Assembly: GCF_018069625.1 (NCBI RefSeq)
Contig: NZ_CP072941.1
Span: 434,001-498,000, forward strand
Length of the DNA: 64,000 bases
Source of the DNA: Streptomyces yatensis
Lineage (GTDB): Bacteria; Actinomycetota; Actinomycetes; Streptomycetales; Streptomycetaceae
Reading direction: 5' to 3'
The notes beneath the pieces are model-generated. The model was not told the origin of the DNA and made no database searches. It saw nothing but the letters and a program-made list of their open reading frames with translations. The position numbers were made by a program, and so were the translations under genes. Positions 6,817 to 21,730 of the stretch are shown piece after piece (the stretch's first letter is position 1; each line of letters starts with the position of its first letter).

Positions 6817-6841
6817 CCGCTCGTTCGCCCGGCGCGAGCGG
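6817..6841 (+). terminator. Hairpin after the YdeP-type gene
   Basis: CCGCTCG (6817-6823) pairs perfectly with CGAGCGG (6835-6841) across an 11-nt loop, 10 nt after the stop codon. The stem is short and there is no T-tract, so this is a moderate call. Confidence 0.45.
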
Positions 6842-7346
6842 TCATCGGAGGCCGGGTGGGAGGGCTTCAACTGCCGGTTCTACGATCGGACATGACCGAG
6901 GTACATGCGCAGGCCAGCGGTTGTGTGCTGGACTGCCCACATCGTGCCGCGAGGCAGCCGCCCGCGAGGCGGAGGACCACAAGGGTGTGACGAGTGAGCG
7001 AACGCCGGGACGGCGCCCAGTGAGCGGCTGTCGCGGGCGCCGCTGCCGCGCCACAGAGAGCCGAAGACCCGCTGACCGGGGGTTTCCTGGAACGGGCTGC
7101 TCGGATTCGGGAAACCCGGGCCCCATGACCGGCCCCCGGCCCGTACGCCACGCGTCCTAGGCGCGGCACTCCTTCCCCCGCGGGAGTGCGACCGACGACC
7201 GCTTGGTGCGTCCGCGACCCCTGGACACCGAGCGGGTCACCTGGCGATGTGCGCGGGACTGCCGCGGAGCCAGGTGAGCGCCCTTCCCCGTTCACCAACG
7301 GACGGTTTCATCATCCACGTAACTCGGCCTCGACCAGGCCGGCATT
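6842..7346. other. Intergenic stretch with no convincing gene
   Basis: About 500 bases between the YdeP-type gene and the agmatinase leader. Open frames exist on both strands but lack a ribosome binding site, a family motif or a believable protein composition. Two small hairpins are visible: GCACTCC/GGAGTGC at 7166-7189, and GGGTTTCC/GGAAACCC around 7080-7110. I see nothing else in it. Confidence 0.5.
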
Positions 7347-7397
7347 CCCCCACACGGATCATCCCCCCACACGGATCATCCCCCTACACGATCGTTC
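7347..7397 (+). repeat. Three short direct repeats in the agmatinase leader
   Basis: A 17-bp unit with core CCCCCACACGGATCAT occurs at 7347-7363 and 7364-7380. A degenerate third copy lies at 7381-7397. The array ends 28 nt before the agmatinase start codon and just before its ribosome binding site. It could be a regulator-binding array or a slippage product in the leader. Confidence 0.6.
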
Positions 7398-7425
7398 CCC
7401 CCACAGAAGAAGGACTCGGCACCGC

Positions 7426-8424: not shown

Positions 8425-8454
8425 ACCGTAACCACCCGTCCCCCGTTGCGCCGA

Positions 8455-8481
8455 TGCCACGTCAGCCGGGCTGACGTGGCA
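8455..8481 (+). terminator. Hairpin terminator after the agmatinase gene
   Basis: TGCCACGTCAG (8455-8465) and CTGACGTGGCA (8471-8481) form a perfect 11-bp stem with a 5-nt loop, 30 nt after the agmatinase stop. Confidence 0.7.
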
Positions 8482-8521
8482 CGGGTGGGCACCGCATGTC
8501 GCACTTTCTGCCCCGATCCAG

Positions 8522-8692
8522 AGATCATTTGTCTTCGAATCCTCGCTTTCACCCGGGGAACCCTCGGACGCCGAGCGGGCGATGGGGCGGGCCTTCGCCA
8601 CGGCTGTCACCGCGTTCATCGTCGGCGCCTCTCCGGGCGACTGGCCGCCGTACGCGCCCGGGGCCATCGCACGGATCCGGCACTTCGACTGA
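8522..8692 (+). pseudogene. 3' relic of a type-B carboxylesterase gene
   Basis: The frame ending at the TGA at 8690-8692 reads about 56 residues that look like the extreme C-terminus of carboxylesterase/lipase type-B enzymes. It has FVFE, then an SDAERAMGRAFATAVTAF helix, a GASPGDWPPYAPG segment and a final RIRHFD. This order (FVF, loop, helix, GDP-like turn, WPxY, FD) is characteristic of that family. No start codon, catalytic Ser/Glu/His region or ribosome binding site is present upstream, where the agmatinase terminator lies. It therefore appears to be what is left after a deletion or insertion. The homology is my own recognition and is not confirmed by a search. Confidence 0.55.
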
Positions 8693-8862
8693 GACTCACG
8701 AAGCCCCTCACACGGACATCGGCGCGGGGCCACCACCGGCGTTTCCTGTCGCTATCCGTGGGATACAGGGCGCTATCGTCATGGCAAGCGAGCCGGCCGC
8801 CGCGCGAGGCTGTGGACAGTGCCCCACAGGGGCGTACTGCTACGGACACGGAGAGCGGACAC

Positions 8863-9510
8863 ATGACGACTGACACTGCTGTCGCGGCAGGCGTGAAGGT
8901 GCCGGGCACGACGCTGGCGCGCGAGGCCACGGAGCTGATCCGGGACACGACGAGCGAGCTCATCTATCACCATTCGCGGCGGGTGTACTTCTTCGGCAGC
9001 CTGCAGGGCCACCGGCGCGATCTGAGCTTCGACCCGGAGCTGCTGTACCTGGGCGCGATGTTCCACGACGTGGGCCTCAACGAGGCGTTCCATGGCAGTG
9101 GCCGCCGTTTCGAGGTGGACAGCGCGGCCGAGGCGAAGCGGTTTCTGCAGGCCCATGGCGTACCCGAGGACAGTATCCGCCGGGTCTGGACGGCGATCGC
9201 CCTGCACACCACTCCCGGGGTCCCCGAGTTCATGGAACCGGAAGTGGCGCTGGTGACGGCCGGTGTCGAGTACGACGTGCTCGGCATCGGGTACGAGGAT
9301 CTCTCCGCCGAGGACCGGGCGGCGGTCGTGGCGCTGCATCCGCGCCCCGACTTCAAGAACAGGATTCTGCGGGCGTTCGCCGATGGCATCCGCCCCAAGC
9401 CGCAGACCACGTTCGGCAACGTCAAGGCGGATGTCCTGGAGCACTTCGTCCCCGGCTTCGAGCGGGGGAACTTCGTCCGGACGATCCTGGATTCGCCGTG
9501 GACGGAATAG
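8863..9510 (+). CDS. HD-domain protein, cyanamide-hydratase-like
   Basis: A 215-residue soluble protein with an HD metal-dependent hydrolase domain. It has an early YHHSRRVYFFG motif, then the paired HD in GAMFHDVGL (about residue 70), and further His in IALHTT. The layout and the C-terminal GFERGNFVRTILDSPW match HD proteins related to fungal cyanamide hydratase, which hydrates small nitriles or cyanamide. That activity is not proven for bacterial members. The ATG at 8863 follows GGAGAGCGG. The upstream extension of the frame runs through the carboxylesterase relic and is not used. Its 3' end overlaps the GlxA-type regulator gene by 13 nt, so the two are translated together. Confidence 0.75.
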   Translation: MTTDTAVAAGVKVPGTTLAREATELIRDTTSELIYHHSRRVYFFGSLQGHRRDLSFDPELLYLGAMFHDVGLNEAFHGSGRRFEVDSAAEAKRFLQAHGVPEDSIRRVWTAIALHTTPGVPEFMEPEVALVTAGVEYDVLGIGYEDLSAEDRAAVVALHPRPDFKNRILRAFADGIRPKPQTTFGNVKADVLEHFVPGFERGNFVRTILDSPWTE

Positions 9511-10517
9511 CGCGCCCGGCGTCACCGGCACCCCGTGGCGGGCGCACCGTCGTGATCGTCGCGTTCGACGGGGTGCAGCTGCTGGATGTCACCGGCCCCG
9601 TGGAGGTCTTCACCACGGCCAACCACTACGGCGCCGACTACGACGTACGGGTGGTCTCCCTCGCCGGTGACGCCGTCACCACGTCCTCCGGGCTCGTGAT
9701 CGGCGCCGACGGCGATCCCGGCACGCTGCCACCACGCCTGGGCACCCTGCTGGTCCCGGGGAGGAGGGACTGGCGCTCGGCCGTGGCCGACACCGACCTG
9801 GTCGGGCTCGTGACGCGGCTGTCGGTGCGGGCGAAGCGCGTGGCATCCGTGTGCGCGGGCGCCTTCGTGCTGGCCGAGGCCGGCCTCCTGGACGGCCGCC
9901 GCGCCGCCACGCACTGGGAGCTGGCGGCGCAGCTGGCCACCGCCTACCCCCAGGTGCGCGTGGACGGCAATCCCGTCTTCGTCCGGGACGGCCATGTGGC
10001 CACCTCGGCCGGTATCACCGCGGGAATCGACCTCTCGCTGTCCCTGGTCGAGGAGGACTGGGGAGCGGAGGTGGCCCGCAACGTGGCCAGGCAGCTGGTG
10101 GTCTTCATGGCCCGCCCGGGCGGGCAGGCGCAGTTCAGCGCGCGGCTGGCCCCGCGTCAGCCACGGCATCCGGCGGTGCGCCGGGTGATGGACCGCGTCA
10201 CCGCGGACCCCGCGGGGTGCCACACCCGGGCCACGCTGGCCGCCTCGGGCGGTGTGAGCGCCCGCCACCTGGAGCGGCTGTTCCGCACCGAGGTGGGCAT
10301 CACGCCCGGCCGCTATGTCGAAGCCGTCCGTGTCGAGGCCGCCCAGGCACTGCTCGCGGACGGCACCGGCACGGTCGAGGAGGTGGCGCGGCAGGCGGGG
10401 TTCGGCTCCTCGGAGTCGCTGCGGCGGGTGTTCCAGCACACCCTCGGGGTCTCGCCGACGGTCTATCGCGCCCGTTTCCGCAGCACCGTCGGCGCACCCC
10501 GTCTCGCGGCCGGGTAG
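9498..10517 (+). CDS. GlxA-type regulator (DJ-1/PfpI domain plus AraC HTH)
   Basis: A 339-residue transcription factor. Residues about 15-190 form a DJ-1/PfpI class I amidotransferase-like domain with the nucleophile-elbow motif SVCAGAFVLAEAGLLDGRRA and the downstream THW. Residues about 225-325 are a two-helix-turn-helix AraC domain (LAASGGVSARHLERLFR and VARQAGFGSSESLRRVFQ). Such regulators sense small metabolites; some control betaine or nitrile metabolism. The GTG at 9498 lies inside the 3' end of the HD gene. It is convergent with the MFS gene at 10535, with only 17 bp between stops. Its likely target is its own operon. Confidence 0.88.
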   Translation: MDGIARPASPAPRGGRTVVIVAFDGVQLLDVTGPVEVFTTANHYGADYDVRVVSLAGDAVTTSSGLVIGADGDPGTLPPRLGTLLVPGRRDWRSAVADTDLVGLVTRLSVRAKRVASVCAGAFVLAEAGLLDGRRAATHWELAAQLATAYPQVRVDGNPVFVRDGHVATSAGITAGIDLSLSLVEEDWGAEVARNVARQLVVFMARPGGQAQFSARLAPRQPRHPAVRRVMDRVTADPAGCHTRATLAASGGVSARHLERLFRTEVGITPGRYVEAVRVEAAQALLADGTGTVEEVARQAGFGSSESLRRVFQHTLGVSPTVYRARFRSTVGAPRLAAG

Positions 10518-10534: not shown

Positions 10535-11899
10535 CTACGCCCCTTCGCGGGCCGTTCGCGCCGCCCGGGCCAGGTCCAGGTCGGTGGTCTCCGGCGCCAG
10601 GAACTGGGACACCAGGGCGCCGACCACCAGCACTCCGGCGCCGATCAGGAGCACGAACTCCGCGCCGAAGTGGTCGAGCCCCATCGGCAGCAGGAACGTG
10701 CCGATCGCGGCGCCCACCCGGCTCATGGCCGTGGCGAAGCCGACGCCCGTGGTCCGCAGGGAGGTGGGGAACACCTCCAGCGGATAGACCGCGGTCAGTG
10801 CGCTGGAGGCGGCGTTGAGGAAGATGAAGAACAGGAAGCCGACGACGATGACGGGGGTGGAGGACGGCCACACCGCCACCAGGGCCAGACACGCGGCCGT
10901 GATCCAGAACGGCGGGATCAGCAGCTTGCGGCGGCCGATCCGGTCCACGACGAGGCATCCCGCGGTGACACCGGCCACGGCGGTGAAGGAGTAGACGAGC
11001 AGCGCGGCGACCGCGTTGTCCCCCATGTGCAGAGCCTCGAAGACCTCGGTCCAGAAGGTGCCGATGGCGAAGTACGGCAGCACCAGGGCGGCCCAGAAGA
11101 CACTGGCGAACACCGTGGAGCGCAGATGCTGCCGGCTGAAGAGCGCGCGGAACCCGTCCTGCCGCACCTCGTCGCGGTCGTCCAGCTCCGCTTCGACGTC
11201 CACCTCGATGCCGTACTTCTCGATCAGCGCTTCGGCCTCGTCCCGGCGCCCCCTGCTCAGCAGCCAGCGCGCGGACTCCGGAATGCCACCTCGCAGGGCC
11301 ACGCACACCACCGCGATCACCGCACTGCTCGCCAGGGACCAGCGCCAGCCGCCGTCGACGGAGGTGAACAGCGCTCCCACGACCGTGGCCAGCGCGTACC
11401 CCAGGTACCAGCTGATCTCCAGGCTCGCCAGCAGCCGCCCGCGGCCCAGCCGGCCCGCGTACTCCGACAGCAGCGGGGCGCCGATCGCGTACTCGCCGCC
11501 GATCGCCACGCCCATCACCAGCCGGATGAGGATGAGCTGGGGGCCGTCGGCGACGAAGAACTGGAGCACCGAGCCGATCAGGAAGATCAGCATGTCCATC
11601 AGGAACACCGGCCGGCGTCCGAACCGGTCGGCCAGCCGGCCGAAGAGCGGCCCTCCGATGAAGATCCCGATGAGCGGTGAGGCACCGACCAGGCCCTGTT
11701 CCATGGAGGACAGATGGAGGTCGTCGGTGATCGCCGACATCGCCAGGCCGATGCCGCCGATGATGTAGCCGTCGATTCCCTGGCCGATCTGGGTGGCCAG
11801 CTTCAGCTTGGTGTGCAGCCGCTTCCGTTCGCGTTCGGTGGCGGGTGCGCCCGGCGGTGTGCTGGGCTCGTTCTGCTCGGTCACAGGCGTCGTTGCCAT
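10535..11899 (-). CDS. MFS transporter of the IclR-linked catabolic cluster
   Basis: About 454 residues and 12 predicted helices. Sugar-porter-like major facilitator signatures are present: GRLADRFGRRP in loop 2-3, PESARWLLSRGR after helix 6, DRIGRRK in loop 8-9 and PETTDLDL at the end. It probably imports the substrate of the cluster by proton symport; the substrate is unknown. The ATG at 11899 has GAAGGA 7 nt upstream and is better than the GTG at 11914. It lies 128 nt downstream of the semialdehyde dehydrogenase gene on the same strand, and the pair is preceded by the palindrome at 13609-13627, so IclR control is likely. Confidence 0.87.
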   Translation of the reverse strand: MATTPVTEQNEPSTPPGAPATERERKRLHTKLKLATQIGQGIDGYIIGGIGLAMSAITDDLHLSSMEQGLVGASPLIGIFIGGPLFGRLADRFGRRPVFLMDMLIFLIGSVLQFFVADGPQLILIRLVMGVAIGGEYAIGAPLLSEYAGRLGRGRLLASLEISWYLGYALATVVGALFTSVDGGWRWSLASSAVIAVVCVALRGGIPESARWLLSRGRRDEAEALIEKYGIEVDVEAELDDRDEVRQDGFRALFSRQHLRSTVFASVFWAALVLPYFAIGTFWTEVFEALHMGDNAVAALLVYSFTAVAGVTAGCLVVDRIGRRKLLIPPFWITAACLALVAVWPSSTPVIVVGFLFFIFLNAASSALTAVYPLEVFPTSLRTTGVGFATAMSRVGAAIGTFLLPMGLDHFGAEFVLLIGAGVLVVGALVSQFLAPETTDLDLARAARTAREGA

Positions 11900-12027
11900 G
11901 CGCGGGTCCTTCACTGAGAGGGGGAGGAGACCGCTGCCCCCGGGAAAGAGCGGCCCGGGGAAGCGCGGCCCGAGAATGAGCGGCCCGGGAGGAGTGGCCC
12001 CGGGAGCAGCGGTGGGGGGAGGGGGAA

Positions 12028-13506
12028 TCAGTCGGTCGGCCAGTCGAGGGCGATGTACTGCGTCTCCAGGAAGGCCTCGATGCCCTCGCGGCCGCCCTCC
12101 CGGCCCAGGCCCGACTGCTTGACGCCGCCGAAAGGCGCGGCCGGGTCGGACAGCAGGCCCCGGTTGAGGCCGACCATGCCGGTCTCCAAGCGCTCGGACA
12201 GGCGCAGGGCCCGGCCCACGTCGCGCGAGTAGATGTACGAGGCGAGGCCGTGCACGGTGGCGTTGGCACGGGCCACCAGCTCGTCCTCGTCGGCGAAGGT
12301 GGCCAGGGGCGCGACCGGCCCGAAGACCTCCTCGTTCATGATCCGGGCGTCCTCGGGCACATCCACCAGGACGGTGGCCGGGTGGTAGCAGCCAGGGCCT
12401 TCGGGCACGCTGCCCCGCGCGGCGACCTTCGCGCCACGGGCGACCGCGTCGTCGACCAGGGAACGGATGGACTCCACGGCGGTCCGGTTGATCATCGGGC
12501 CGAGGGTGACGCCCTCCTCCAGACCCGCTCCGGCACGGACCGCGGTCATGGCCGCCGCGAACTTCTCGGTGAATTCGGCGGCGACGGACTCATGGACGTA
12601 GAACCGGTTGGCGGCGATGCAGACCTCGCCACCGCCCCGCATCTTGGCGTCCATCGCACCGCGCACCGCGGCGTCGACGTCGGCGTCCTCGCAGACGATG
12701 AAGGGGGCGTTGCCACCCAGCTCCATGGTCACGTTGACCACGTTCTCCGCCGCCTGCCCCAGGAGGGTGCGGCCGGTGGCGGTGGAGCCGGTGAAGGAGA
12801 ACTTGCGGACCCGCTCGTCGCGGAGCCAGGCGGAGACCACCTCGGGCGCGCGGTCGGTCGGCAGGACGTTCAGCAGCCCGTCGGGCAGGCCCGCCTCGCT
12901 CAGCAGGGCGGCGATGGCGAGGGCGGTGAAGGGGGTGTCGGGGGCCGGCTTGAGGAGCACCGGGCAGCCGGCGGCGAGCGCCGGGGCGATCTTCCGGGTG
13001 GCCATCGCGGCGGGGAAGTTCCACGGTGTGACGAAGGCGGTGACGCCCACCGGATGCCTGCGCACGACGTGCCGGAAGCCGCCACCGGGCGCGTCGCCGA
13101 ACGAGGAGCCGATCCGTACCGCCTCCTCGGCGAACCAGCGGAAGAACTCCGCCGCGTAGCCGACCTCGGACACCGCGTCCCGGTATGCCTTGCCGTTCTC
13201 CAGGACGATCAGGCGGGCGAGCGTGTCGGTGTGCTCGCGCATCAGCGCGAACGCCGTGTGCAGGACCTCCGAACGACGGCGGGCCGGCGTCGCCCGCCAC
13301 CCGGCGGCGGCCGCCTGGGCCGCGTCGACCGCCGCCATGGCGTCCGCCGGGCCGGCCGCGGACACCTCGCGGATCAGCTCCGCGGTGGCCGGGTCGTGCA
13401 CGGGGAACGTCCGTCCGTCCTCGGCCGCACACCAGCGGCCGGCGATGAACACATCGCCTTCGGCGAACGGCGCCTTGACGAGGGTTTCTATGCCGGGGAG
13501 GTTCAT
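12028..13506 (-). CDS. NAD(P)-dependent (succinate-)semialdehyde dehydrogenase
   Basis: A 492-residue aldehyde dehydrogenase of full family length. It shows the coenzyme motif TPWNFPAAMATRKIAPALAAG, FTGSTATG, the general-base Glu in MELGGNAPF and the catalytic Cys in GGGEVCIAANR. C-terminal motifs are EEVFGPV and FGGVKQSGLGREGG. The sequence is closest in style to GabD-type succinate-semialdehyde dehydrogenases, which oxidise C3-C5 semialdehydes. The residues just before the Cys (GGGEV) differ from the more usual GQ-type stretch. It should oxidise an aldehyde produced by the cluster. Its promoter region contains the 19-bp palindrome at 13609-13627. Confidence 0.87.
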   Translation of the reverse strand: MNLPGIETLVKAPFAEGDVFIAGRWCAAEDGRTFPVHDPATAELIREVSAAGPADAMAAVDAAQAAAAGWRATPARRRSEVLHTAFALMREHTDTLARLIVLENGKAYRDAVSEVGYAAEFFRWFAEEAVRIGSSFGDAPGGGFRHVVRRHPVGVTAFVTPWNFPAAMATRKIAPALAAGCPVLLKPAPDTPFTALAIAALLSEAGLPDGLLNVLPTDRAPEVVSAWLRDERVRKFSFTGSTATGRTLLGQAAENVVNVTMELGGNAPFIVCEDADVDAAVRGAMDAKMRGGGEVCIAANRFYVHESVAAEFTEKFAAAMTAVRAGAGLEEGVTLGPMINRTAVESIRSLVDDAVARGAKVAARGSVPEGPGCYHPATVLVDVPEDARIMNEEVFGPVAPLATFADEDELVARANATVHGLASYIYSRDVGRALRLSERLETGMVGLNRGLLSDPAAPFGGVKQSGLGREGGREGIEAFLETQYIALDWPTD

Positions 13507-13608
13507 GAGCTGCTCTTTTCTCCGTTCCGAACAGGGGCTGGTCCGGTTCGCGGTGAATTTACGAGCGCGTCATGCGGCCGACAAGACCACTTCTCGGATC
13601 GCAATGGT

Positions 13609-13627
13609 GGTTGCTGTCAGGGCAACT
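13609..13627. promoter_or_regulatory. Putative IclR operator, copy 2
   Basis: The palindrome GGTTGCTGTCAGGGCAACT lies about 100 bp before the semialdehyde dehydrogenase start, in the gap after the IclR gene. Its arms GTTGC/GCAAC are perfect. It matches the copy at 14600-14618 at 13 of 19 positions, including GGTTG and CAAC at the same spacing. Confidence 0.55.
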
Positions 13628-13678
13628 GCCCCGGCATGCCCGCCCCGCACCCGCATGGGCCGCGCGGCCCCCGCGCTG

Positions 13679-14560
13679 TCAGGTGAGCCGTGCCCTGGGG
13701 AAGGAGGTGTGCCGAGGCTCCCAGCCCAGCATCACGGAGACGCGTGCCGCCGCCTTGGCCGTCGTGCGGCCCGCCTGGTCCAGGCGGTCGCCGAGCCGGG
13801 ACTTGGGTGCCGAGATGTTGAGCGCCGCGACGACACGTCCCCGGAAGTCGCGTACGGGTGCGGAGACCCCGACCAGCCCGGTCTCGAACTCCTCGCTCAC
13901 CCTCGCGTAGCCCCGTCGCGAAGCCTCCTGGATCAGTGACCACAGCTCGGGGATCGGTGGCGTCGAGGCGGTGCCGAAGCGGACGTACAGCTCATCGGGG
14001 GTGGCATCGGCCAGCAGCACGCGTCCGGCCGAGGTCTGCCACGCGGGCACTCCGCGCCCCTCCCAGCCGTGGACGCGGAAGGAGTGTCCGGAGACCGAGA
14101 GCAGGGTGAGCACCTCGCGGTCGCTCAGGACACACAGATGGCTGGTCTCCTCCACGTCCGACGACAGCGCGTGCATCACCGGCTCGGCCATGCGCACCAG
14201 CCGGTTCTGCGAGGTCCGCGCGACGAGCGAGAAGAGCCGCCAGCCCAGGCGGTACTCCAGGGTGTCGGGGTCGCGTTCCACGATCCCCGCGGCGGCCAGG
14301 GCCTTGAGGGCCCGTGAGACCTGGGTCTTCTCCCGGCCCACCAGATGCGCCAGGCGTACGACGCCGAGCCCGCCGGCGTTCTGGGCCTCGTCGGAGGCGA
14401 GCGCCTCCAGCAGGTCGATGTCACGGCGCAGCCCGTGGCCGCGCGGGGCGGCGGTGTCCGCGGGACCGGCGGAGGCGGCGTCGGGGCCCGTGCCATGCGG
14501 ATCGGCGGGGTCCTCGGGACCGTCGGTGCCGCGAGGGGGGAGGTTCGTCACGCGCGACAT
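13679..14560 (-). CDS. IclR-family transcriptional regulator
   Basis: A regulator of about 293 residues. An N-terminal winged helix (LRRDIDLLEALASDEA, then VRLAHLVGREKTQVSRALKAL) is followed by the IclR effector-binding domain. That domain contains SHLCVLSDREVLTLLSV, WQTSAGRVLLAD and a final ALNISAPKSRL segment. The start at 14560 (SRVTNLPPRG after Met) is chosen because the upstream 21 codons run into the divergent promoter. It sits between the two transcription units of the cluster, divergent from the Fae operon and upstream of the dehydrogenase-transporter pair. It is the obvious regulator of both. The effector is unknown. Confidence 0.9.
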   Translation of the reverse strand: MSRVTNLPPRGTDGPEDPADPHGTGPDAASAGPADTAAPRGHGLRRDIDLLEALASDEAQNAGGLGVVRLAHLVGREKTQVSRALKALAAAGIVERDPDTLEYRLGWRLFSLVARTSQNRLVRMAEPVMHALSSDVEETSHLCVLSDREVLTLLSVSGHSFRVHGWEGRGVPAWQTSAGRVLLADATPDELYVRFGTASTPPIPELWSLIQEASRRGYARVSEEFETGLVGVSAPVRDFRGRVVAALNISAPKSRLGDRLDQAGRTTAKAAARVSVMLGWEPRHTSFPRARLT

Positions 14561-14599
14561 CCTAGGGCGCACACCGCGGAAGCCCCAGGTCAGCCGCCG

Positions 14600-14618
14600 G
14601 GTTGTCATGAGAGCAACC
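14600..14618. promoter_or_regulatory. Putative IclR operator, copy 1
   Basis: The palindrome GGTTGTCATGAGAGCAACC (arms GGTTG/CAACC) lies in the IclR-Fae divergent region, 25 bp upstream of the predicted -35 of the Fae operon and 40 bp from the IclR start. A related copy lies at 13609-13627. Confidence 0.6.
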
Positions 14619-14642
14619 GGCATTTCGATTCACCCCGACGGC

Positions 14643-14672
14643 TTGTCGACGGGGTGGCGGCGGTTCTAGATT
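14643..14672 (+). promoter_or_regulatory. Predicted promoter of the Fae operon
   Basis: TTGTCG (14643-14648) and TAGATT (14667-14672) are separated by 18 bp and fit the housekeeping sigma consensus. The start codon is 90 nt downstream, leaving a leader of about 85 nt. Confidence 0.5.
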
Positions 14673-14762
14673 CGCCGCATCGGACCGGAGAACTGCGGCG
14701 AATGCGCGGTTCCTCCCCTGTGGTCCGCCGATTCCCCGCTCCCGGAGATCCAGGAGATCCCC

Positions 14763-15302
14763 ATGCCATCGCCTTTTGCCCCGACCGCCCTCATCGGCGA
14801 GTCCTTCGCCGGGGAGGGTGCCAACGCCGCGCACACGAACGTCGTGATCGGACGCAAGGGCGGACCCGTCGAAACGGCCTGGGCCACGGCGCTGGCCACG
14901 CCCAGCGCCGGACACGTCCCCTTCGTGACGATCGTGCGGCCCTCGGTCCCGGTGAAGCCGCTGACGCTGTTCGTGCCGAAGGCCGCCGCGGAGGGTGAGC
15001 TGCACCAGCGCGCCACGTGGGGCTCCGCCCAGGCCGGTCTGGCGCAGGGGGTCGCGGACGCGGTCCGGGACGGTGTGCTGCCCGCCGAGGATGCCGACGA
15101 ACTGCTGATCATCGCCGCGATCTGGGTGAACCCGGCGGTCGACGACCTGGACGTGTCCTTCCGCAATCAGCGCGCCGCCGCCTACGAGGCGGTGCGGGCC
15201 GCGGTGACCGGCGCCCCGACCGTGGCCGATGTCCTCGCGGCCGCCGAGGAAGGCCCGGTCAACCCGTTCTACGCCCCCACCTCCGAGGTGCTCACCCGAT
15301 GA
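14763..15302 (+). CDS. Formaldehyde-activating enzyme (Fae) homologue
   Basis: A 179-residue protein alignable end to end with formaldehyde-activating enzymes, which join formaldehyde to tetrahydromethanopterin. Visible family motifs are GESFAGEGANAAHTNVVIG with the active-site-type His24, the P-x-x-P-x-KP-x-TL stretch around residue 60, the TWGSAQAGLAQGVADAV helix, and the C-terminal helical part. Some pterin-site residues differ from the methylotroph enzyme (KPLTL in place of KPNTL, WGSAQ in place of FGPAQ). Streptomyces is not known to make tetrahydromethanopterin, so the true reaction is probably different. It is first in an operon; its stop overlaps the next start (ATGA). Confidence 0.8.
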   Translation: MPSPFAPTALIGESFAGEGANAAHTNVVIGRKGGPVETAWATALATPSAGHVPFVTIVRPSVPVKPLTLFVPKAAAEGELHQRATWGSAQAGLAQGVADAVRDGVLPAEDADELLIIAAIWVNPAVDDLDVSFRNQRAAAYEAVRAAVTGAPTVADVLAAAEEGPVNPFYAPTSEVLTR

Positions 15303-16411
15303 AGATCACGGATATCACCCTGGACCGGCTGCGCCTGGAGCTGGACCCGCCGTTCCGGGCCGCGTGGGACCCCGAGCCACGGCGCCACTTCGACGCGACG
15401 ATCGTCCGCGTCCACACCGACGAGGGGATCACCGGTATCGGCTCCGGTGATCTGATGGACGGCTTCGACACCTACAAGCACCTGTTCGTCGGCGAGGACC
15501 CGCTCGACATCACCCGGCACGTCAAGGCCATCGAGACCGCCAACTTCCACGGCGCCCACTACTGGCCGCTGGAGGCGGCCCTGTGGGACATCATCGGCAA
15601 GGTCCACGGCCGCCCGGTGGCGGAGCTGTTCGGCAACGCGGCCAAGAAGCTGCCCGCCTACGCCTCCTGCGGTGAGCTCAAGGCGCCCCAGGAGCGTGTC
15701 GCCACCGCGCTGAAGGTCCGCGAAGCGGGCTTCCGCGCGATGAAGATCCGCATCGACCGCGACCGGGTCGACGAGGGGATCGCCGCGGTCCGCGCCGTAC
15801 GCGAGGAACTGGGCGCCGACTTCGAGATCATGGTGGACCTGAACCAGTCGTGGCGCATGGCGGGCGACACCGCGGGCGCCACCGACCTAGCCCGGACCCG
15901 CAAGACCATCGCGCGCCTGGCCGAGCTCGACGTGTTCTGGGTCGAGGAGCCACTGCCCTACGGCGACCTGGCGGGCTTCAAGCGCCTGCGGGCCGAGAAC
16001 CCCGGGGTACGCATCGCCGCCGGCGAGATGCACCACTCCCCCACCGAGTTGCTGCGCTACCTCGAAGAGGACGCCCTGGACATCTACCAGATGGACGTGG
16101 TGCTCGCGATCGGCATGCACCGCGCCCGCACCCTGGCGGAGATCGCCCAGCTCAAGCACCGCCACTTCACCCCGCACAGCTGGACCAACGGCATCGGCGT
16201 GCTCGCCAATCTGCACGTGGCGGCAGGGGTCGGCGGCGGCCCGTACTTCGAGTTCCCCTACGACCCGCCCGGGTGGACCCCGGAGCGCCGGGACTTCATG
16301 CTCGCCGACCCGGTGCGGGTGAACAGCGAGGGCGACCTCGAGATATCCGCGAGGCCGGGCCTCGGTATCGAGCTCGACGAAGACGCGATCGACCGCTGGA
16401 GGATCACATGA
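15299..16411 (+). CDS. Enolase-superfamily (mandelate racemase type) dehydratase
   Basis: A 370-residue protein with the N-terminal capping domain (residues about 1-125) and the TIM-barrel domain of mandelate racemase/muconate-lactonizing enzymes. The metal ligands are the Asp in VDLNQS, the Glu in VEEPLPY and the Glu in AAGEMHH. The second-strand base motif reads MKIRID (K-x-R). An Asp in YQMDV and the His in TPHSW suggest the mandelate-racemase His-Asp dyad. Members mostly dehydrate sugar acids. The start codon overlaps the Fae stop by 4 nt and the stop overlaps the next gene by 4 nt, so translation is coupled. The substrate is unknown, probably a small hydroxy or sugar acid. Confidence 0.85.
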   Translation: MKITDITLDRLRLELDPPFRAAWDPEPRRHFDATIVRVHTDEGITGIGSGDLMDGFDTYKHLFVGEDPLDITRHVKAIETANFHGAHYWPLEAALWDIIGKVHGRPVAELFGNAAKKLPAYASCGELKAPQERVATALKVREAGFRAMKIRIDRDRVDEGIAAVRAVREELGADFEIMVDLNQSWRMAGDTAGATDLARTRKTIARLAELDVFWVEEPLPYGDLAGFKRLRAENPGVRIAAGEMHHSPTELLRYLEEDALDIYQMDVVLAIGMHRARTLAEIAQLKHRHFTPHSWTNGIGVLANLHVAAGVGGGPYFEFPYDPPGWTPERRDFMLADPVRVNSEGDLEISARPGLGIELDEDAIDRWRIT

Positions 16412-17928
16412 CGCACGGCATCGACGCCCTGCTCGCCCGTTCGTACGACCAGTGGGTGGCCGCGGCCGGCACACTCACCGTCGAGACCCGGCTGTTCATC
16501 GACGGCCGCTTCACCGACGCCCTCTCCGGCGACACCTTCACCAGCGTCTCGCCGCGCGACGGTTCGGTGCTCGCCAAGGTGCAGGCGGCCGGGGCCGAGG
16601 ACGTGGACCGTGCCGTACGGGGCGCGCGCGCCGCCTTCGAGGACGGACGCTGGCGCGACCTGCCGCCCAAGGAGCGCAAGGGCGTCCTGCTGCGCTGGGC
16701 GGATCTGATCCGGGCGAACGCCGAGGAGCTGGCCCTCCTCGACACCCTGGAGATGGGCAAGCCCATCACCGAGTCCGTGCGGATCGACGTGGACAAGGCC
16801 GCCGAGACCATCGCCTGGTACGCCGAGGCCATCGACAAGACCTACGACGAGGTGGCGCCGACCCCCGGCGACGCGATCGCCCTGATCACCCGGGAACCCC
16901 TGGGCGTCATCGGCGCGGTCGTCCCGTGGAACTACGCGCTGCTGATCGCCAGTTGGAAGCTGGGTCCGGCGCTGGCCACCGGCAACAGCGTCGTCCTCAA
17001 GCCGGCCGAGCAGACCTCCCTGGCCGCTCTGCGCCTGGCCGCCCTCGCCTCCGAGGCGGGTCTGCCGGACGGGGTGTTCAACGTCCTCCCGGGCCGCGGC
17101 GAGGTCGCCGGACAGGCTCTGGGCCGCCACCCGGAGGTCGACAAGATCGCCTTCACCGGTTCGGCGGAGGTGGCCCGGCTCTTCCAGGTGTACGCGGGCG
17201 AGTCCAACGGCAAGCAGGTGGCCGTCGAGGCGGGTGGCAAGTCGCCCCAGCTGCTGTTGCCCGACGCCGACATCGAGGCCGCCGCGTCGGCGGTGGCCTG
17301 GGGCATCTTCTACAACGCCGGACAGACCTGCAACGCCGGTTCCCGCGTCGTGGTCCACGCCTCCGTCAAGGACCGGCTCCTGGACGCCCTGCGCCGGATC
17401 ACCGCGGAGACCTTCCGGGTGGGCGACCCGCTCGATCCGGCCACCGTCATGGGCCCCCTGGTCGACGAGACCCAGCTGGCCACGGTCCTCGGCTATATCG
17501 AGCGCGGTGTGGAGGACGGGGCGAGTGTGGTGTTCGGCGGTGGCCGCACCCTCGCCGAGTCGGGCGGCAGCTATGTCGAACCGACCGTCCTGGACGGGGT
17601 GGTGAACACCTCCGCCGTCGGCCAGGAGGAGATCTTCGGCCCGGTCCTGGCCATCGTGTCCTACGACGGCGACGCCGACGAGGGGATACGGCTGGCCAAC
17701 GAGAGCGACTTCGGGCTCGTCGCCTCCGTCTGGACACGTGATGTGGCCGTCGCCCACCGCGCCGCCAAGCGGCTGCGGGCCGGGACGGTCTGGATCAACA
17801 CCTTCGACGCCAGCGATGTCATCACCCCCTTCGGCGGCTTCAAGGCCACCGGCGCGGGCCGTGACAAGTCCCTGCACGCACTGGACGCGTACACGGCGCT
17901 GAAGACCACCTGGATCAACCTGGCCTGA
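16408..17928 (+). CDS. NAD(P)-dependent aldehyde dehydrogenase (PuuC-like)
   Basis: A full-length aldehyde dehydrogenase of 506 residues. It has VVPWNYALLIASWKLGPALATGN for cofactor binding, FTGSAEV, the Glu in VEAGGKSPQ, the catalytic Cys in GQTCNAGSR, EEIFGPV and PFGGFKATGAGRD. It resembles gamma-glutamyl-aminobutyraldehyde and similar omega-amino or hydroxy aldehyde dehydrogenases, but those assignments are loose. Its ATG overlaps the stop of the dehydratase gene (ATGA at 16408-16411). It should oxidise an aldehyde formed further up the same pathway. Confidence 0.87.
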   Translation: MTHGIDALLARSYDQWVAAAGTLTVETRLFIDGRFTDALSGDTFTSVSPRDGSVLAKVQAAGAEDVDRAVRGARAAFEDGRWRDLPPKERKGVLLRWADLIRANAEELALLDTLEMGKPITESVRIDVDKAAETIAWYAEAIDKTYDEVAPTPGDAIALITREPLGVIGAVVPWNYALLIASWKLGPALATGNSVVLKPAEQTSLAALRLAALASEAGLPDGVFNVLPGRGEVAGQALGRHPEVDKIAFTGSAEVARLFQVYAGESNGKQVAVEAGGKSPQLLLPDADIEAAASAVAWGIFYNAGQTCNAGSRVVVHASVKDRLLDALRRITAETFRVGDPLDPATVMGPLVDETQLATVLGYIERGVEDGASVVFGGGRTLAESGGSYVEPTVLDGVVNTSAVGQEEIFGPVLAIVSYDGDADEGIRLANESDFGLVASVWTRDVAVAHRAAKRLRAGTVWINTFDASDVITPFGGFKATGAGRDKSLHALDAYTALKTTWINLA

Positions 17929-18002
17929 ACCGGCCATGGCGCACGGACCTGTTCATCCCCTCCCCTCTTTACTTTTCTCTTCTCACCACAGCGAGGACAA
18001 CG

Positions 18003-18938
18003 ATGAGGATCGGTTTCATCGGCCTGGGCAACATGGGACGCCACATGGCCCGCCATCTCATCCACGCGGGCCACCTGGTCACCGTGCACGACACCCGGCC
18101 CGAGGCCGCCGCCGAGCATCTGGCGCTCGGCGCCCGCTGGGCCGACTCGCCCGCGACCTGTGCCGAAGGCGCGGAATTCCTGATCACGATGCTCCCCACC
18201 CCGCGGATCGTCGAGGACGTGCTGCTGCGCGGTGGCGCGGCCGAGGCCCTGCCGCCCGGCGCCCTGTGGATCGACATGTCGACCTCGACCCCCGCGGCCG
18301 CGGACCGGGTCGCCGCCGATGTGCTGAACGGGCGCGGGGTGCGCCGGCTCGACGCACCGGTCAGCGGGATGGCGCGGGGCGCCGAGGCCGGAGCGCTGCA
18401 GATCTTCGCCGGCGGTACGGACGACGACTTCCGCATCGCCCTGCCCGTCCTCGAGGCCATGGGCGATCCGGACCGGATTCTGCACGTCGGCCCGCCCGGC
18501 GCGGGCTACACGGTCAAGCTCATGCTCAACCTGCTCTGGTTCAGCCATGTGGTCGCCACCTCCGAGGTGCTCGCCATGGGCGTCAAGGCGGGCGTCGACC
18601 TCGGGACGCTGCGCAGCTCGCTGCTGGCGAGCCCGGCCGCCTCCGCCTTCGTCGAGAAGGACCTCATGTCCATCCTCGCCGACGGTGACTACGACGACTC
18701 GTTCGCCATGGCGCTGGCCTGCAAGGACCTGGGGCTCGCCGTCGACCTCGGCCGCGATCTGGGGGTGTCCACCGAACTGTCCGCCCTGGTCGAGCAGATC
18801 TACCGCCGCTCCAAGGCCCATCATGGCGAGCTCGCCGGTGAGATGAGCCCGGTCCGCCTCTACGAGGCCCTCGCCGGGCAGGAGTTCCGGCTGCCCGACC
18901 CGACCATCGCGCCGGCCGACGCGACCCTCGCGGTCTGA
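18003..18938 (+). CDS. NAD(P)-dependent beta-hydroxyacid dehydrogenase (HIBADH-like)
   Basis: A 311-residue oxidoreductase of the 3-hydroxyisobutyrate/tartronate-semialdehyde reductase family. It has an N-terminal Rossmann motif (IGFIGLGNMG), the substrate signature DAPVSGMARGAEAG, and the catalytic Lys in GAGYTVKLMLNLLW at about residue 170. It should interconvert a 3-hydroxyacid and its semialdehyde. It lies 74 nt after the aldehyde dehydrogenase and has GAGGA before the ATG. Its last seven codons and stop are part of a 20-bp tandem duplication (18920-18959), a sign of a recent local event; the protein end is unaffected. Confidence 0.87.
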   Translation: MRIGFIGLGNMGRHMARHLIHAGHLVTVHDTRPEAAAEHLALGARWADSPATCAEGAEFLITMLPTPRIVEDVLLRGGAAEALPPGALWIDMSTSTPAAADRVAADVLNGRGVRRLDAPVSGMARGAEAGALQIFAGGTDDDFRIALPVLEAMGDPDRILHVGPPGAGYTVKLMLNLLWFSHVVATSEVLAMGVKAGVDLGTLRSSLLASPAASAFVEKDLMSILADGDYDDSFAMALACKDLGLAVDLGRDLGVSTELSALVEQIYRRSKAHHGELAGEMSPVRLYEALAGQEFRLPDPTIAPADATLAV

Positions 18939-18959
18939 GCGCGACCCTCGCGGTCTGAG
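18920..18959 (+). repeat. Perfect 20-bp tandem duplication across a stop codon
   Basis: Positions 18920-18939 are repeated exactly at 18940-18959, and each copy contains an in-frame-looking CGGTCTGAG end. The first copy supplies the stop of the beta-hydroxyacid dehydrogenase; the second lies in the intergenic gap before the alcohol dehydrogenase gene. Confidence 0.95.
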
Positions 18960-19004
18960 AAGAAGCGAACGCCACCCCGCACCACGACGCCAGGAGCCGC
19001 ACCC

Positions 19005-20174
19005 ATGACCTCTTCCGGGCCCGGCGGCCCAACGCCGCTGAGCATCGACCCCACCTGTCGTATCGAGTTCGGCCCCGGCCGCATCGGCCAACTCCCCGCA
19101 CTGATCGCGGCCACCGGCCACGATCGCGCCTTCGTCGTCACCGACCACGGCCTGCGCGCCGCGGGCGTCCTCGAGCCCGTTCTCAAGATCCTCCGGGCCG
19201 CGGGGCTGGAGTACGCCGTCTACGACGAGGTGGCTCCCAACCCCTCCACCGCCAACGTCGACGCGGGTGCCGCACGGGCCCGTGCGTTCGGCACCGCCGC
19301 GGTCGTCGCCCTCGGTGGCGGCTCCGTACTCGACGCGGCGAAGGGCATATCCCTGCTGGTCGGCAACCCGAAGGCCATGGCCGGCGACGCCGACGAGCTC
19401 TGGGAGGCGGCCGACGGACTCCCGCTCGTCGCGATCCCCACCACCTCCGGCACCGGCGCCGAAACCAACGGCTTCGGGGTCATCGAGGACACCACCGCCT
19501 GCCGCAAGGTGTACATCGGCCACCCCTCCGTGAAGCCGCGCATCGCGCTGCTCGACCCGGAGCTCACCCTGGGGCTTCCCGCACCGGCCACCGCCGCCAC
19601 CGGTATCGACGCCCTGGTCCACGGCATCGAGTCACTCGCCTCGCGCGGCGCGAACCCGGTCTCCACCGCCTACGCCACCCAGGCCGTGACCATGGTCAGC
19701 CACGCCCTGCCCGCCGCGTACCGGGACGGCGCGGACCTGGATGCCCGCGCCGAGCTGATGCTGGGAGCCCATCTCGCGGGCCAGGCACTCAGCCTCTCCG
19801 GGCTCGGGCTGGTCCATGGCATCGGCCACGCGCTGACCGCGCACACCGGCACTCCCCACGGCGTCGCCCTCGCCGCCGTCCTCGAAGAGGTGATGGAGTT
19901 CAACGCCCCCGCCGCGCGGGGCGCCTATGAGCAGGTGGCGCGCGCCATGCGGCTGGCACCGCCCGCCGACGGGGACTGGGCGCGGGCCGCCATCGACGCG
20001 GTACGCGAGATCGCGGGCGCCGTCGAGGTGAAGCGCCCCCTGAGGACGCTCGGCACCGACCGCGGCATGCTGCCCGCCATCGCCGCCGGGGCGGTGGCGG
20101 ACGCGGTGACGACGAACAATCCCCTGTCCCCCGATCACACCCAGGTCCTGGAGATCCTCACCACCACCTACTGA
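19005..20174 (+). CDS. Iron-type alcohol dehydrogenase
   Basis: A 389-residue group III (iron-containing) alcohol dehydrogenase. It has ALGGGSVLDAAKG for NAD binding and IPTTSGTGAE. The metal ligands are Asp and His in GIDALVHGIE, and His in LVHGIGHAL and HTGTPHG. It acts on short alcohols, diols or lactate-like compounds, reducing or oxidising a carbonyl made by the neighbouring enzymes. AGGAG precedes the ATG. It is the last gene of the Fae operon; a 10-bp-stem hairpin follows at once. Confidence 0.88.
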   Translation: MTSSGPGGPTPLSIDPTCRIEFGPGRIGQLPALIAATGHDRAFVVTDHGLRAAGVLEPVLKILRAAGLEYAVYDEVAPNPSTANVDAGAARARAFGTAAVVALGGGSVLDAAKGISLLVGNPKAMAGDADELWEAADGLPLVAIPTTSGTGAETNGFGVIEDTTACRKVYIGHPSVKPRIALLDPELTLGLPAPATAATGIDALVHGIESLASRGANPVSTAYATQAVTMVSHALPAAYRDGADLDARAELMLGAHLAGQALSLSGLGLVHGIGHALTAHTGTPHGVALAAVLEEVMEFNAPAARGAYEQVARAMRLAPPADGDWARAAIDAVREIAGAVEVKRPLRTLGTDRGMLPAIAAGAVADAVTTNNPLSPDHTQVLEILTTTY

Positions 20175-20222: not shown

Positions 20223-20249
20223 TGTCACATGCGCGGCCCCGGCGGTGTC
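20223..20249 (+). promoter_or_regulatory. Predicted ECF41-type promoter
   Basis: TGTCACA (20223-20229), a 16-bp spacer, then TGTC (20246-20249). ECF41 sigma factors are known to recognise TGTCACA and CGTC with this spacing. The site lies 37 nt before the start of a decarboxylase-like gene that is followed by an ECF41 gene. Confidence 0.75.
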
Positions 20250-20285
20250 TTCATGCCGAACAGGCAACCGCACAGGGAGAACACC

Positions 20286-20867
20286 ATGTCGCTACGCGTT
20301 CCGAAGGGGGAGCTCCCCACCGAGCTCCGGGAAATCCTGCTCAAGCAGCTCGGTGAGGTGCCCGAGCCCGACGAGGTGCTGTGGAACAACCCCAAGGTGG
20401 CCGAGGCGAACCGGGAGTTCGCGGCCAGGCTGGGTGCGTGGGACGCCGCCGACGCGAGCCTGAAGACGTTCGCGCATATGGCGGTCGCCGCGCAGATCGG
20501 GTGCAGCTGGTGCCTCGACATCAACTACTTCCTCGCGCTGAACCAGAAACTGGACCTGGCCAAGGCGAGCCAGGTGCCGCGCTGGCGGGAGTCGGAGGTG
20601 TTCACACCGCTGGAGCGGGACGTCCTGGAGTACGCCGAGGCCATGACGAACACACCGCCGACCGTCACCGATGAGCTGTCCGCGAGCCTGCTGGACCGGC
20701 TCGGCCCGGCGGCGCTGGTCGAACTCACCGTGTACATCGGCTTCGCCAACTTCGCGAGCAGGTCCAACATCGCGCACGGAATCACCTCGCAGGGCTACTC
20801 CGACGCCTGCGGGATTCCGCTGGCCGGGCGCCCCGCGCAGTCGTCCGGCGTAACGTCCACGGCATGA
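20286..20867 (+). CDS. Carboxymuconolactone decarboxylase-family (AhpD-like) protein
   Basis: A 193-residue, all-helical protein. Its central motif AHMAVAAQIGCSWCLDIN contains a CxxC pair, as in AhpD-type peroxidase-like members of the carboxymuconolactone decarboxylase family. The His usually found just after the second Cys is not visible. AGGGAGA precedes the ATG at 20286. Genes of this family are the classic neighbours and targets of ECF41 sigma factors. Here the stop overlaps the sigma factor start (ATGA), and the ECF41-type promoter lies upstream. It may reduce peroxides or quinone-like compounds; the substrate is not known. Confidence 0.82.
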   Translation: MSLRVPKGELPTELREILLKQLGEVPEPDEVLWNNPKVAEANREFAARLGAWDAADASLKTFAHMAVAAQIGCSWCLDINYFLALNQKLDLAKASQVPRWRESEVFTPLERDVLEYAEAMTNTPPTVTDELSASLLDRLGPAALVELTVYIGFANFASRSNIAHGITSQGYSDACGIPLAGRPAQSSGVTSTA

Positions 20868-21730
20868 CCGGGGATCCGTTCGTCGCCCATCGCAGCCTGC
20901 TGTTCACGGTCGCCTACGAGATGCTCGGGTCGGCCGCCGACGCGGAGGACGTGGTCCAGGAGTCCTGGCTGCGGTGGGCCGACGTCGACCGGTCGCGGGT
21001 GCGCGACCCGCGGGCGTACCTCGTCCGCACGGTCACCCGCCAGGCGCTCAACCGCCTGCGGACACTGTCGCGCCGCCGCGAGGAATACGTCGGCGAGTGG
21101 CTGCCGGAGCCGCTGCTGACCAGCCCCGATGTCGCCGAGGACGTCGAACTCGCGGAGAGCGTGTCGATCGCGATGCTGACCGTCCTGGAAACGCTCGGAC
21201 CGGCCGAGCGGGCGGTGTTCGTGCTGCGCGAGGTCTTCGACCTGCCGTACGGAGAGATCGCCGAGGCCATCGGGAAATCCGCGGCAACGGTGCGGCAGAT
21301 CGCCCGACGGGCCCGCGAGCATGTGGCGGCCAGGCGGCCGCGGATGCGGGTGAGCCGGTCGGAGCAGCAGGCCGTGGTGGAGCGGTTCCTGGCCGCGCTG
21401 CGGACCGGGCAGGTGCGGGAGCTGATGGAGATCATGGCGCCGGACGTGGTCATGATCGCCGACGGTGGCGGGGTGGTGGCCGCCGCGCGGGCTCCGATCC
21501 ACGGCGTCGAGGAAGTGGCGAAGTTGCTGGCGCGCGCGAACCAGGTGGTGGCCGCGTTCGAGACGACGCCCGTATGGCTCAACGGCGCGCCCGCGGGCCG
21601 GCTCGCCTTCGACGGCGAGCCGTCCGCGGTGAGCCTCCTGGTGGAGAACGGGCGCATCACCCGGATCTACGTGGTGAGAAACCCACGGAAGCTGACCCGG
21701 CTGGATGTACCGGCCGAACTGGCCAGGTAG
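20864..21730 (+). CDS. ECF41-family sigma factor (SigJ-like) with SnoaL-like C-terminal domain
   Basis: A 288-residue sigma factor. The sigma-2 region is at about residues 5-70 (FTVAYEMLGSAADAEDVVQE) and sigma-4 at about 100-155 (LPYGEIAEAIGKSAATVRQ). Between them is WLPEPL (79-84), the ECF41 linker signature. The C-terminal 120 residues form a SnoaL/NTF2-like domain with DGGGVV and NPRKL, both ECF41 hallmarks; in this group the domain regulates activity in place of an anti-sigma factor. It is translationally coupled to the upstream AhpD-like gene and probably drives its own operon from 20223-20249. Confidence 0.93.
   Translation: MTGDPFVAHRSLLFTVAYEMLGSAADAEDVVQESWLRWADVDRSRVRDPRAYLVRTVTRQALNRLRTLSRRREEYVGEWLPEPLLTSPDVAEDVELAESVSIAMLTVLETLGPAERAVFVLREVFDLPYGEIAEAIGKSAATVRQIARRAREHVAARRPRMRVSRSEQQAVVERFLAALRTGQVRELMEIMAPDVVMIADGGGVVAAARAPIHGVEEVAKLLARANQVVAAFETTPVWLNGAPAGRLAFDGEPSAVSLLVENGRITRIYVVRNPRKLTRLDVPAELAR

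Follow-up and report, generated by a model that had tools for sequence, protein, structure and literature searches.

We analyzed a 64,000-nucleotide stretch of the Streptomyces yatensis chromosome (10.36 Mb; "the window" is this whole stretch) and focused on a divergent gene cluster built around a homologue of the formaldehyde-activating enzyme, Fae. It is well supported that the cluster represents a conserved modular catabolic system; in agreement with the first-pass annotation of the window, which considered the pathway new, we found no description of the cluster or pathway in the mainly open-access literature searched (titles and abstract openings). Sequence comparisons likewise give good support for treating its Fae protein as part of a separate, repurposed lineage, called N-type after an Asn at a canonical Asp position. 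For the function of the system, we favor with a probability of about 0.45 a reading in which two interchangeable gene modules would each open the glycerol ether of a betaine-lipid head group, most likely that of diacylglyceryl-trimethylhomoserine (DGTS), and a shared core would consume the homoserine betaine, with Fae splitting off trimethylamine.

The genes were called with a home-made gene caller and form two runs (window 10535-20174), MFS-SSADH-IclR on the minus strand and Fae-Eno-ALDH-HIBDH-FeADH on the plus strand. Every gene named in the first-pass annotation was recovered in its place by gene calls and profile searches. The Fae/Eno and Eno/ALDH pairs overlap by four bases (ATGA). Counts are given over the best 80 of 128 loci (the named loci, 79 from Actinomycetota and 1 from Chloroflexota, rich in Microbacteriaceae and Streptomyces) or over the 71 loci with more than 17 kb of sequence.

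10535-11914, minus strand: major facilitator superfamily (MFS) transporter (profile matches)
12028-13506, minus strand: SSADH-type semialdehyde dehydrogenase, core (profile matches; alongside Fae in 64 of 71 loci)
13679-14623, minus strand: IclR-family regulator (profile match; in 74 of 80 named loci)
14601-14619, plus strand: candidate IclR operator GTTGNCNNNANNGCAACCG (motif search, shuffles, relatives)
14763-15302, plus strand: Fae-family protein, N-type, 179 aa (PF08714, TIGR03126, site comparison, tree, model)
15299-16411, plus strand: Eno, dehydratase of the mandelate-racemase subgroup, module A (profile matches, residue set)
16408-17928, plus strand: ALDH, aldehyde dehydrogenase similar to PuuC and betaine-aldehyde dehydrogenase but below the cut-offs, 506 aa, module A (profile matches)
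18003-18938, plus strand: HIBDH, beta-hydroxyacid dehydrogenase, core (profile matches; in 69 of 71 loci)
19005-20174, plus strand: FeADH, iron-type alcohol dehydrogenase, module A (profile matches; last gene of the conserved cluster)

An asparagine-type branch of the Fae family

The suspected Fae identity of the central protein held up, as it matched both PF08714 (174.9 bits, cut-off 27) and TIGR03126 (131.4 bits, cut-off 118.05), and it is the only PF08714 match in its genome. An AlphaFold model, used for the fold only (pLDDT 74.7; residues 45-65 below 50), gave five structure matches at E <= 0.001, all of them Fae chains (1y5y/1y60) with TMq of 0.77-0.83. For the active site, we took residues 22, 24, 53, 71, 73 and 88 of the Methylobacterium extorquens Fae to be the contact residues, following database annotation, with Asp24 and Thr73 presumably contacting the pterin. 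The window protein retains His24, Lys73 and Gln90, equivalent to His22, Lys71 and Gln88 of M. extorquens, and has Asn26 at the position of Asp24 and Ala at that of Thr73.

The same differences divide the whole family sample. In a 114-row alignment numbered after M. extorquens, the canonical rows of which are all proteobacterial with archaeal Fae not included, the Asp24 position holds Asn in 91 rows, Asp in 22 and neither in 1. The Asp rows consist of 17 methylotroph-type sequences, 2 from Phyllobacterium, 1 from Azospirillum lipoferum and 2 from Methylocystis, and one of the methylotroph-type fae genes adjoins mch and a beta-RFAP-synthase-family gene. The equivalents of His22, Lys71 and Gln88 are invariant throughout both groups. 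Thr is found at position 73 in all 22 Asp rows and in 2 of the 91 Asn rows, 78 of the latter having Ala. Among the 45 columns at least 90% conserved in both groups, 25 are alike and 20 are fixed differently, and in a 79-row tree the groups are split by a single branch of length 4.27 with support 100/100. The Asn-type lineage is recognizable by one residue.

Close relatives of the window protein are found in S. asiaticus, S. antioxidans, S. malaysiensis, S. niphimycinicus and other Streptomyces, and the gene belongs to a minority, being present in 24 of 392 Streptomyces genomes (9 of 150 in a smaller sample) and in 10 of 394 genomes of the class. Marine roseobacters are described as lacking Fae (PMC4744692). 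The Streptomyces genome G021 carries a very divergent copy, 28% identical to the window's and still Asn-type, with a long branch and an unsure position in the tree; it is surrounded by genes for MFS, SSADH, IclR, an NDMA-type alcohol dehydrogenase (NDMA-ADH) and module B. A far relative in Azospirillum oryzae has, in its full sequence, Glu at the Asp24 position and Met replacing the catalytic His. On the A. oryzae plasmid (L120, 3253-16369) this gene adjoins a Rieske oxygenase, an OpuAC binding protein, a BKACE-type protein and a 3-hydroxyacyl-CoA dehydrogenase, and the neighborhood looks like a quaternary-amine catabolic region.

The first-pass annotation had inferred another job for Fae, as tetrahydromethanopterin is not known in Streptomyces. 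In the window's genome, we found neither methenyl-tetrahydromethanopterin cyclohydrolase (MCH, PF02289) nor beta-RFAP synthase (TIGR00144), other methanopterin genes not being searched, and a search for MCH in 45 Fae-positive genomes (hosts of 45 of the 80 named loci, some of them incomplete metagenome-assembled genomes, MAGs) gave 0 of 45. These results, the true Fae membership and the conserved pathway support the proposal, and the change from Asp to Asn at a presumed pterin-contact residue and the separateness of the lineage strengthen it. Among the 120 matches listed, several close homologues are labeled "5,6,7,8-tetrahydromethanopterin hydro-lyase"; our analysis suggests that such labels are wrong for the Asn-type lineage. 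The cluster gives a test case for a one-carbon enzyme reused without its cofactor.

A conserved core with exchangeable parts

The expected conservation of the neighborhood was borne out across the 80 named loci and on plasmids of Pseudomonadota. At the identity thresholds chosen by us, the named loci, short contigs included, contain Fae in 80, IclR in 74, HIBDH in 72, SSADH in 65, Eno in 60, ALDH in 56 and FeADH in 56 cases; an OpuAC-type binding protein is present in 38, MFS in 31, a short-chain dehydrogenase/reductase (SDR) in 17, a flavoenzyme (FADox) in 16, an FGGY-family kinase in 16 and NDMA-ADH in 3. We called module A if at least two of Eno, ALDH and FeADH were present and module B if at least two of SDR, FADox and FGGY kinase were. 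Module A alone is present in 53 of the 71 longer loci and module B alone in 13; 1 locus has both and 4 have neither (L033, L051, L062 and L086), L051 being a type B locus cut by the contig end inside the module. Some records are not independent, as G593 and G543 share one genome with L033, G789 (L169) with L036 and G288 with L056. Both types occur within Streptomyces, and on the Fae tree with 63 typed rows (52 A, 11 B) the A/B label changes four times, at least two of the changes being forced by well-supported branches; the MFS/OpuAC label changes twice on the same tree.

The gene orders point to a small common denominator. HIBDH is recognized in 69 of the 71 loci and is replaced by NDMA-ADH at L065; at L054, no counterpart was recognized. 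Umezawaea, Nocardioides and Microbacteriaceae have the contiguous order Fae-HIBDH-SSADH-SDR-FADox-FGGY; the genes are Fae-Eno-ALDH-FeADH-NDMA-ADH-SSADH in a Chloroflexota MAG and ABC-Fae-HIBDH-SSADH in S. clavuligerus, where ABC denotes an ATP-binding cassette importer. Plasmids of Caballeronia and Burkholderia carry Fae-AKR-SSADH-MFS, AKR being an aldo-keto reductase, and in Caballeronia grimmiae a gene annotated as IclR is close by. An Ensifer plasmid carries AKR-Fae-SSADH. The Caballeronia SSADH exceeds the SSADH subfamily cut-off (699 vs. 646 bits). The same position next to Fae and SSADH thus seems to be taken by any of three unrelated oxidoreductases, HIBDH, AKR or the NDMA-type enzyme. 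Judged by gene content, the putative core, the smallest recurring set, is Fae, one alcohol-type oxidoreductase and SSADH.

A few loci deviate from these arrangements. Two actinobacterial genomes of 1.3-1.4 Mb (L095 and L096; G208 and G505) have type A genes, a betaine-type ABC importer and an EamA-family gene, with no SSADH seen nearby. In a Thermoleophilia MAG (L067:6215-10707) and an actinobacterial MAG (L048:766-3375), Fae follows an NDMA-type alcohol dehydrogenase near an Amidohydro_2-like protein, the former having additionally a PALP-family protein; this is perhaps a further variant of the pathway.

The dehydratase of module A has the residues K149, R151, D180, E216, E243, D266 and H293. 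We take these to include the Lys on strand 2, the Asp/Glu/Glu metal site and the Asp-His dyad; the K, D, E, E, D and H are kept in 59 of 59 relatives and R151 in 58. The best NCBIfam equivalog score for Eno is 109.7 bits against a cut-off of 500, short of what acid-sugar specificity calls for, and the best solved match is 3sjn (122 bits), listed without a function, with 5xd7/5xd9 reaching just 65.6-67 bits.

In module B, the flavoenzyme has its best solved match in alkyl-dihydroxyacetone-phosphate (alkyl-DHAP) synthase, AGPS (180.6 bits). With residues numbered by printed chain positions, AGPS Arg419 is kept in 17 of 17 copies and Tyr578 and His615-617 in 16 of 16 readable ones, one copy being short. 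From these similarities, the flavoenzyme, FGGY kinase and SDR would be the enzyme set of ether-lipid synthesis read backwards. We dropped simple glycerol catabolism as a role for module B: a kinase and a flavoenzyme would suffice for it, leaving the SDR and the kept AGPS residues idle.

If A and B are alternatives for the same job, Fae genomes with neither of them locally should carry one elsewhere. We searched 16 genomes or records for the flavoenzyme and Eno (in wider flavoenzyme surveys, the three best first-look candidates were scored per genome). At the Fae locus, Eno or module B was already present in four of them (G021, G561, G570 and G575), and neither module was seen in the other 12. 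Among these 12, a complete module B was recovered elsewhere in G543, G571, G580 and on the S. clavuligerus plasmid, and one split by contig ends in G581; in G453, FeADH-ALDH-Eno lies on another contig, the Fae contig beginning just before Fae. In the class-wide survey, a single one of the 394 genomes had a close flavoenzyme (745 bits), and this genome is Fae-positive; matches in ten others reached just 206-214 bits. Among the 392 Streptomyces, Fae is present in 3 of 6 flavoenzyme-positive and 21 of 386 flavoenzyme-negative genomes (Fisher P value = 0.0036, uncorrected for kinship).

Copies of module B outside the Fae clusters differ in their company. A glycerol-3-phosphate antiterminator (PF04309), identified in L094, adjoins all 8 module B copies apart from the ordinary clusters (L135, L136, L137, L138, L141, L165, L166 and L167; L141 overlaps L094) and is missing from all 16 copies that lie inside named Fae clusters. 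This distribution makes stand-alone copies look controlled by a glycerol-phosphate signal, while embedded ones are probably under IclR. Three Fae-negative Streptomyces have a stand-alone antiterminator-MFS-SDR-FADox-FGGY operon (L165:5944-11953, L166:6160-12080 and L167:297-6219), which is possibly a general glyceryl-ether catabolic unit.

The transporter is exchanged as well: 31 of the 71 loci have MFS, 34 OpuAC and 6 neither, and a predicted OpuAC/ProVWX-type ABC importer, of betaine type by its similarities, is the replacement for MFS in other lineages. The binding protein of L060 belongs to PF04069 and its solved matches are acetylcholine and nicotine sensors derived from a choline/betaine binder, as well as binders of osmoprotectants, choline, carnitine and ergothioneine. 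In the choline/nicotine binder, two tyrosines make cation-pi contacts (PMC8820738). The equivalent of Tyr65 is kept in 42 of 42 cluster OpuAC proteins and that of Tyr357, placed by our own mapping via the printed numbering, in 41 of 42.

The intergenic alignment yielded an operator candidate alone. This imperfect palindrome, GTTGNCNNNANNGCAACCG, has one match in the window (14601-14619), none in 100 shuffles, and recurs in 21 of the 80 named loci. In the aligned sequences showing the motif, it sits in the IclR-Fae gap, in L026 beyond IclR, and in G021 (L139:9047-9065) it is flanked by IclR and by an Eno gene that shares 85% identity with that of the window and has no Fae next to it. We consider it a candidate IclR operator. 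As the motif overlaps the annotated IclR start, the true start is probably further in, near 14560. The regulator itself gave weak profile matches, PcaR first and KdgR second.

The cluster borders were set by comparison. Upstream (4516-10517), the window contains a molybdopterin oxidoreductase, an arginase-family protein, an HD-domain protein and a DJ-1/AraC regulator, left out because parts of this region are kept in close relatives and not in distant ones. Directly 3' of FeADH (20229-21730) are a carboxymuconolactone-decarboxylase-family protein and a sigma-70-family factor with a SnoaL-like domain, a pair placed in the same way only in L014 among the named loci.

A candidate route and competing explanations

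The betaine-type transporter and the partner resembling alkyl-DHAP synthase make a glyceryl ether with a quaternary ammonium group a better candidate than a sugar acid, and the combination of a cationic or zwitterionic compound, a glycerol ether and a short hydroxy acid ending at a semialdehyde points to the deacylated head group of a betaine lipid. In the pathway that we propose, the substrate would be the deacylated DGTS head group, glyceryl-O-trimethylhomoserine, or free homoserine betaine where the core stands alone, taken up by the MFS porter in the window and by the betaine-type ABC importer in other lineages. In module A, oxidation by FeADH and ALDH would turn the free end of the glycerol into a 3-O-substituted glycerate, from which Eno would beta-eliminate the alkoxide to give pyruvate and an alcohol, R-OH. 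In module B, the FGGY kinase would carry out a phosphorylation, the SDR would form a C2 ketone and the flavoenzyme, running ether-lipid synthesis in reverse, would release DHAP and R-OH. The core would then oxidize R-OH (trimethylhomoserine) to an aldehyde with HIBDH, AKR or the NDMA-type enzyme; N-type Fae would act on the C-N bond, eliminating trimethylamine; and SSADH would convert the C4 semialdehyde to an acid of the tricarboxylic acid cycle. IclR would govern the whole set. The least certain step is Fae as a C-N lyase, a guess made because every other protein of the core has a step assigned to it and because the ancestral chemistry of Fae forms a carbon-nitrogen bond without a metal or Schiff base.

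DGTS is reported from green algae, lichens, mosses, ferns, some fungi and some bacteria (PMC9892843). Free homoserine betaine is found as well, in the role of an osmolyte (PMC13403184), which could explain the minimal clusters. The 2023 review that lists the sources of DGTS describes the enzymes breaking the DGTS ether bond as unidentified but presumed to exist (PMC9892843), and we found no catabolic system for the DGTS head group in the open-access literature searched. The modular swapping gives candidate genes for this ether cleavage by two unrelated chemistries. That the cluster is the first genetic system for ether-linked betaine-lipid head groups, with two unrelated ether-opening modules and a Fae turned into a C-N lyase that works without methanopterin and releases trimethylamine, is a tentative claim that we consider less likely than not.

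Several observations weigh against the DGTS route. The substrate and the reaction of Fae are both inferred, and we know of no C-N lyase activity for any Fae. The HIBDH, ALDH, FeADH and SSADH of the window all score below every NCBIfam cut-off, so their substrates are not fixed by family, and in 7 of the 71 loci no SSADH was recognized nearby. The window MFS is nearer the glucose porter GlcP (100.9 bits) than the organic cation/carnitine transporter 2, OCTN2 (78.7 bits); matching both, it is not decisive on the substrate. A peptide-type SBP_bac_5 importer stands beside the genes in L067, L093 and the Ensifer locus L103. Neither module was found in G224 or in G579 (Fae contig 3.4 kb), nor in the four plasmid records of Caballeronia, Burkholderia and Ensifer, the chromosomes of which were not searched. 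Three of the six Streptomyces with a close flavoenzyme are Fae-negative, and module B is thus not tied exclusively to this pathway. Finally, the solved structure nearest to HIBDH, 3cky, is a 2-hydroxymethylglutarate dehydrogenase acting on a 2-hydroxymethyl acid, a likeness that would fit the head group of another betaine lipid, diacylglyceryl-hydroxymethyl-trimethyl-beta-alanine (DGTA), as well as or better than that of DGTS.

This last point leads to the explanations that compete with the DGTS route. The head group of DGTA is a 2-hydroxymethyl-trimethyl-beta-alanine ether, and the same two-part logic could apply to it or to diacylglyceryl-carboxyhydroxymethylcholine (DGCC), with HIBDH oxidizing a true 3-hydroxyisobutyrate analogue and the loss of trimethylamine and a one-carbon unit giving Fae a formaldehyde-like step. 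The near-universal HIBDH with its 3cky likeness and the one-carbon ancestry of Fae speak for such a substrate; the SSADH-like partner, above its subfamily cut-off in Caballeronia, suits a C4 semialdehyde instead, HIBDH is replaced by AKR or NDMA-ADH in some lineages and soil hosts better match the sources of DGTS listed above, making this version improbable. Also unlikely, if a shade less so, is that Fae still handles free formaldehyde through another carrier (folate, a thiol or an unknown amine), the source being N-demethylation or the retro-aldol cleavage of a pathway product. It retains the catalytic His, Lys and Gln, formaldehyde could be released if Eno made 4-hydroxy-2-oxobutyrate, and the far relative in Azospirillum adjoins a Rieske oxygenase and a glycine-betaine binding protein, though it lacks the catalytic His. 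The annotated conserved genes of the cluster, however, include no demethylase or aldolase, Eno is absent from type B and minimal loci, and the presumed pterin-contact Asp is Asn in 91 of 91 rows. Moreover, the same core is found in actinobacteria and proteobacteria, which use different thiols, and as hosts with different thiols share the core, we dropped formaldehyde handling by mycothiol or glutathione. The tetronate route, in which Eno would make 4-hydroxy-2-oxobutyrate for cleavage to pyruvate and formaldehyde, was dropped because of core loci without Eno, and vitamin B6 pathway II was dropped as we saw no enzyme that would open the ring.

The first-pass annotation had suggested that Fae handles an aldehyde released from what the dehydratase makes, in a pathway for sugar acids or small aldehydes. 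ALDH would then make an aldonate, Eno would dehydrate it and the small aldehydes would fall to Fae, HIBDH, SSADH and FeADH. Eno has the full residue set of acid-sugar dehydratases, ALDH and FeADH make a pair, the MFS resembles sugar porters and KdgR is among the weak matches of IclR, second to PcaR. The idea is not favored, as the core occurs without the dehydratase in 17 of the 71 loci (13 type B, 4 with neither module) and on the Pseudomonadota plasmids; the betaine-type importer with intact cation-pi tyrosines, the lack of an evident role for the alkyl-DHAP-synthase-like enzyme and the absence of an aldolase among the annotated conserved genes lower it further, and we regard it as rather remote. 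The core and the modules could also be separate pathways sharing a niche or a regulator, with module B degrading some other glycerol derivative. Three Fae-negative Streptomyces would allow this, as module B stands by itself there, next to an MFS and an antiterminator of its own. However, A and B replace each other at one position almost without overlap, several Fae genomes with neither locally have B or A in trans, and core and module B genes are contiguous in Umezawaea, Nocardioides and Microbacteriaceae, so that we regard this as the least probable of the alternatives.

Comparison with known systems

The DGTS route draws on known enzymes, each of which differs from its proposed counterpart. 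The M. extorquens Fae (EC 4.2.1.147; 1y5y/1y60) shares with the N-type protein the PF08714/TIGR03126 match, the fold and the equivalents of His22, Lys71 and Gln88, but the latter has Asn for Asp24 and mostly Ala for Thr73, belongs to another operon and is found without MCH in the genomes searched. The dehydratases of the enolase superfamily, including 3,6-anhydro-L-galactonate cycloisomerase (5xd7), a precedent for the elimination of an ether oxygen, have the same Lys, Asp/Glu/Glu and Asp-His residues as Eno, whereas the second lysine is Arg in Eno and its equivalog scores are far below the cut-off. The module B flavoenzyme retains Arg419, Tyr578 and His615-617 of AGPS (4bby, 2uuu) but is about 490-500 aa long, is encoded together with an FGGY kinase and an SDR in a catabolic operon of bacteria and would act in the direction of ether cleavage.

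As whole systems, choline and glycine betaine catabolism (GbsAB, BetAB) with the importers OpuB, OpuC and ProX provides a parallel in the oxidation of a quaternary ammonium compound first as an alcohol and then as an aldehyde, and in the cage residues of OpuAC; the cluster differs from it by a proposed two-part substrate, by Fae, by Eno or ether-lipid-type enzymes and by having no demethylase among the annotated genes. The catabolism of phospholipid head groups in Phaeobacter similarly uses lipid head groups as nutrients, but these are phosphate esters, phosphocholine and phosphorylethanolamine (PMC10132767), whereas the head groups proposed for the cluster would be ether-linked betaines.

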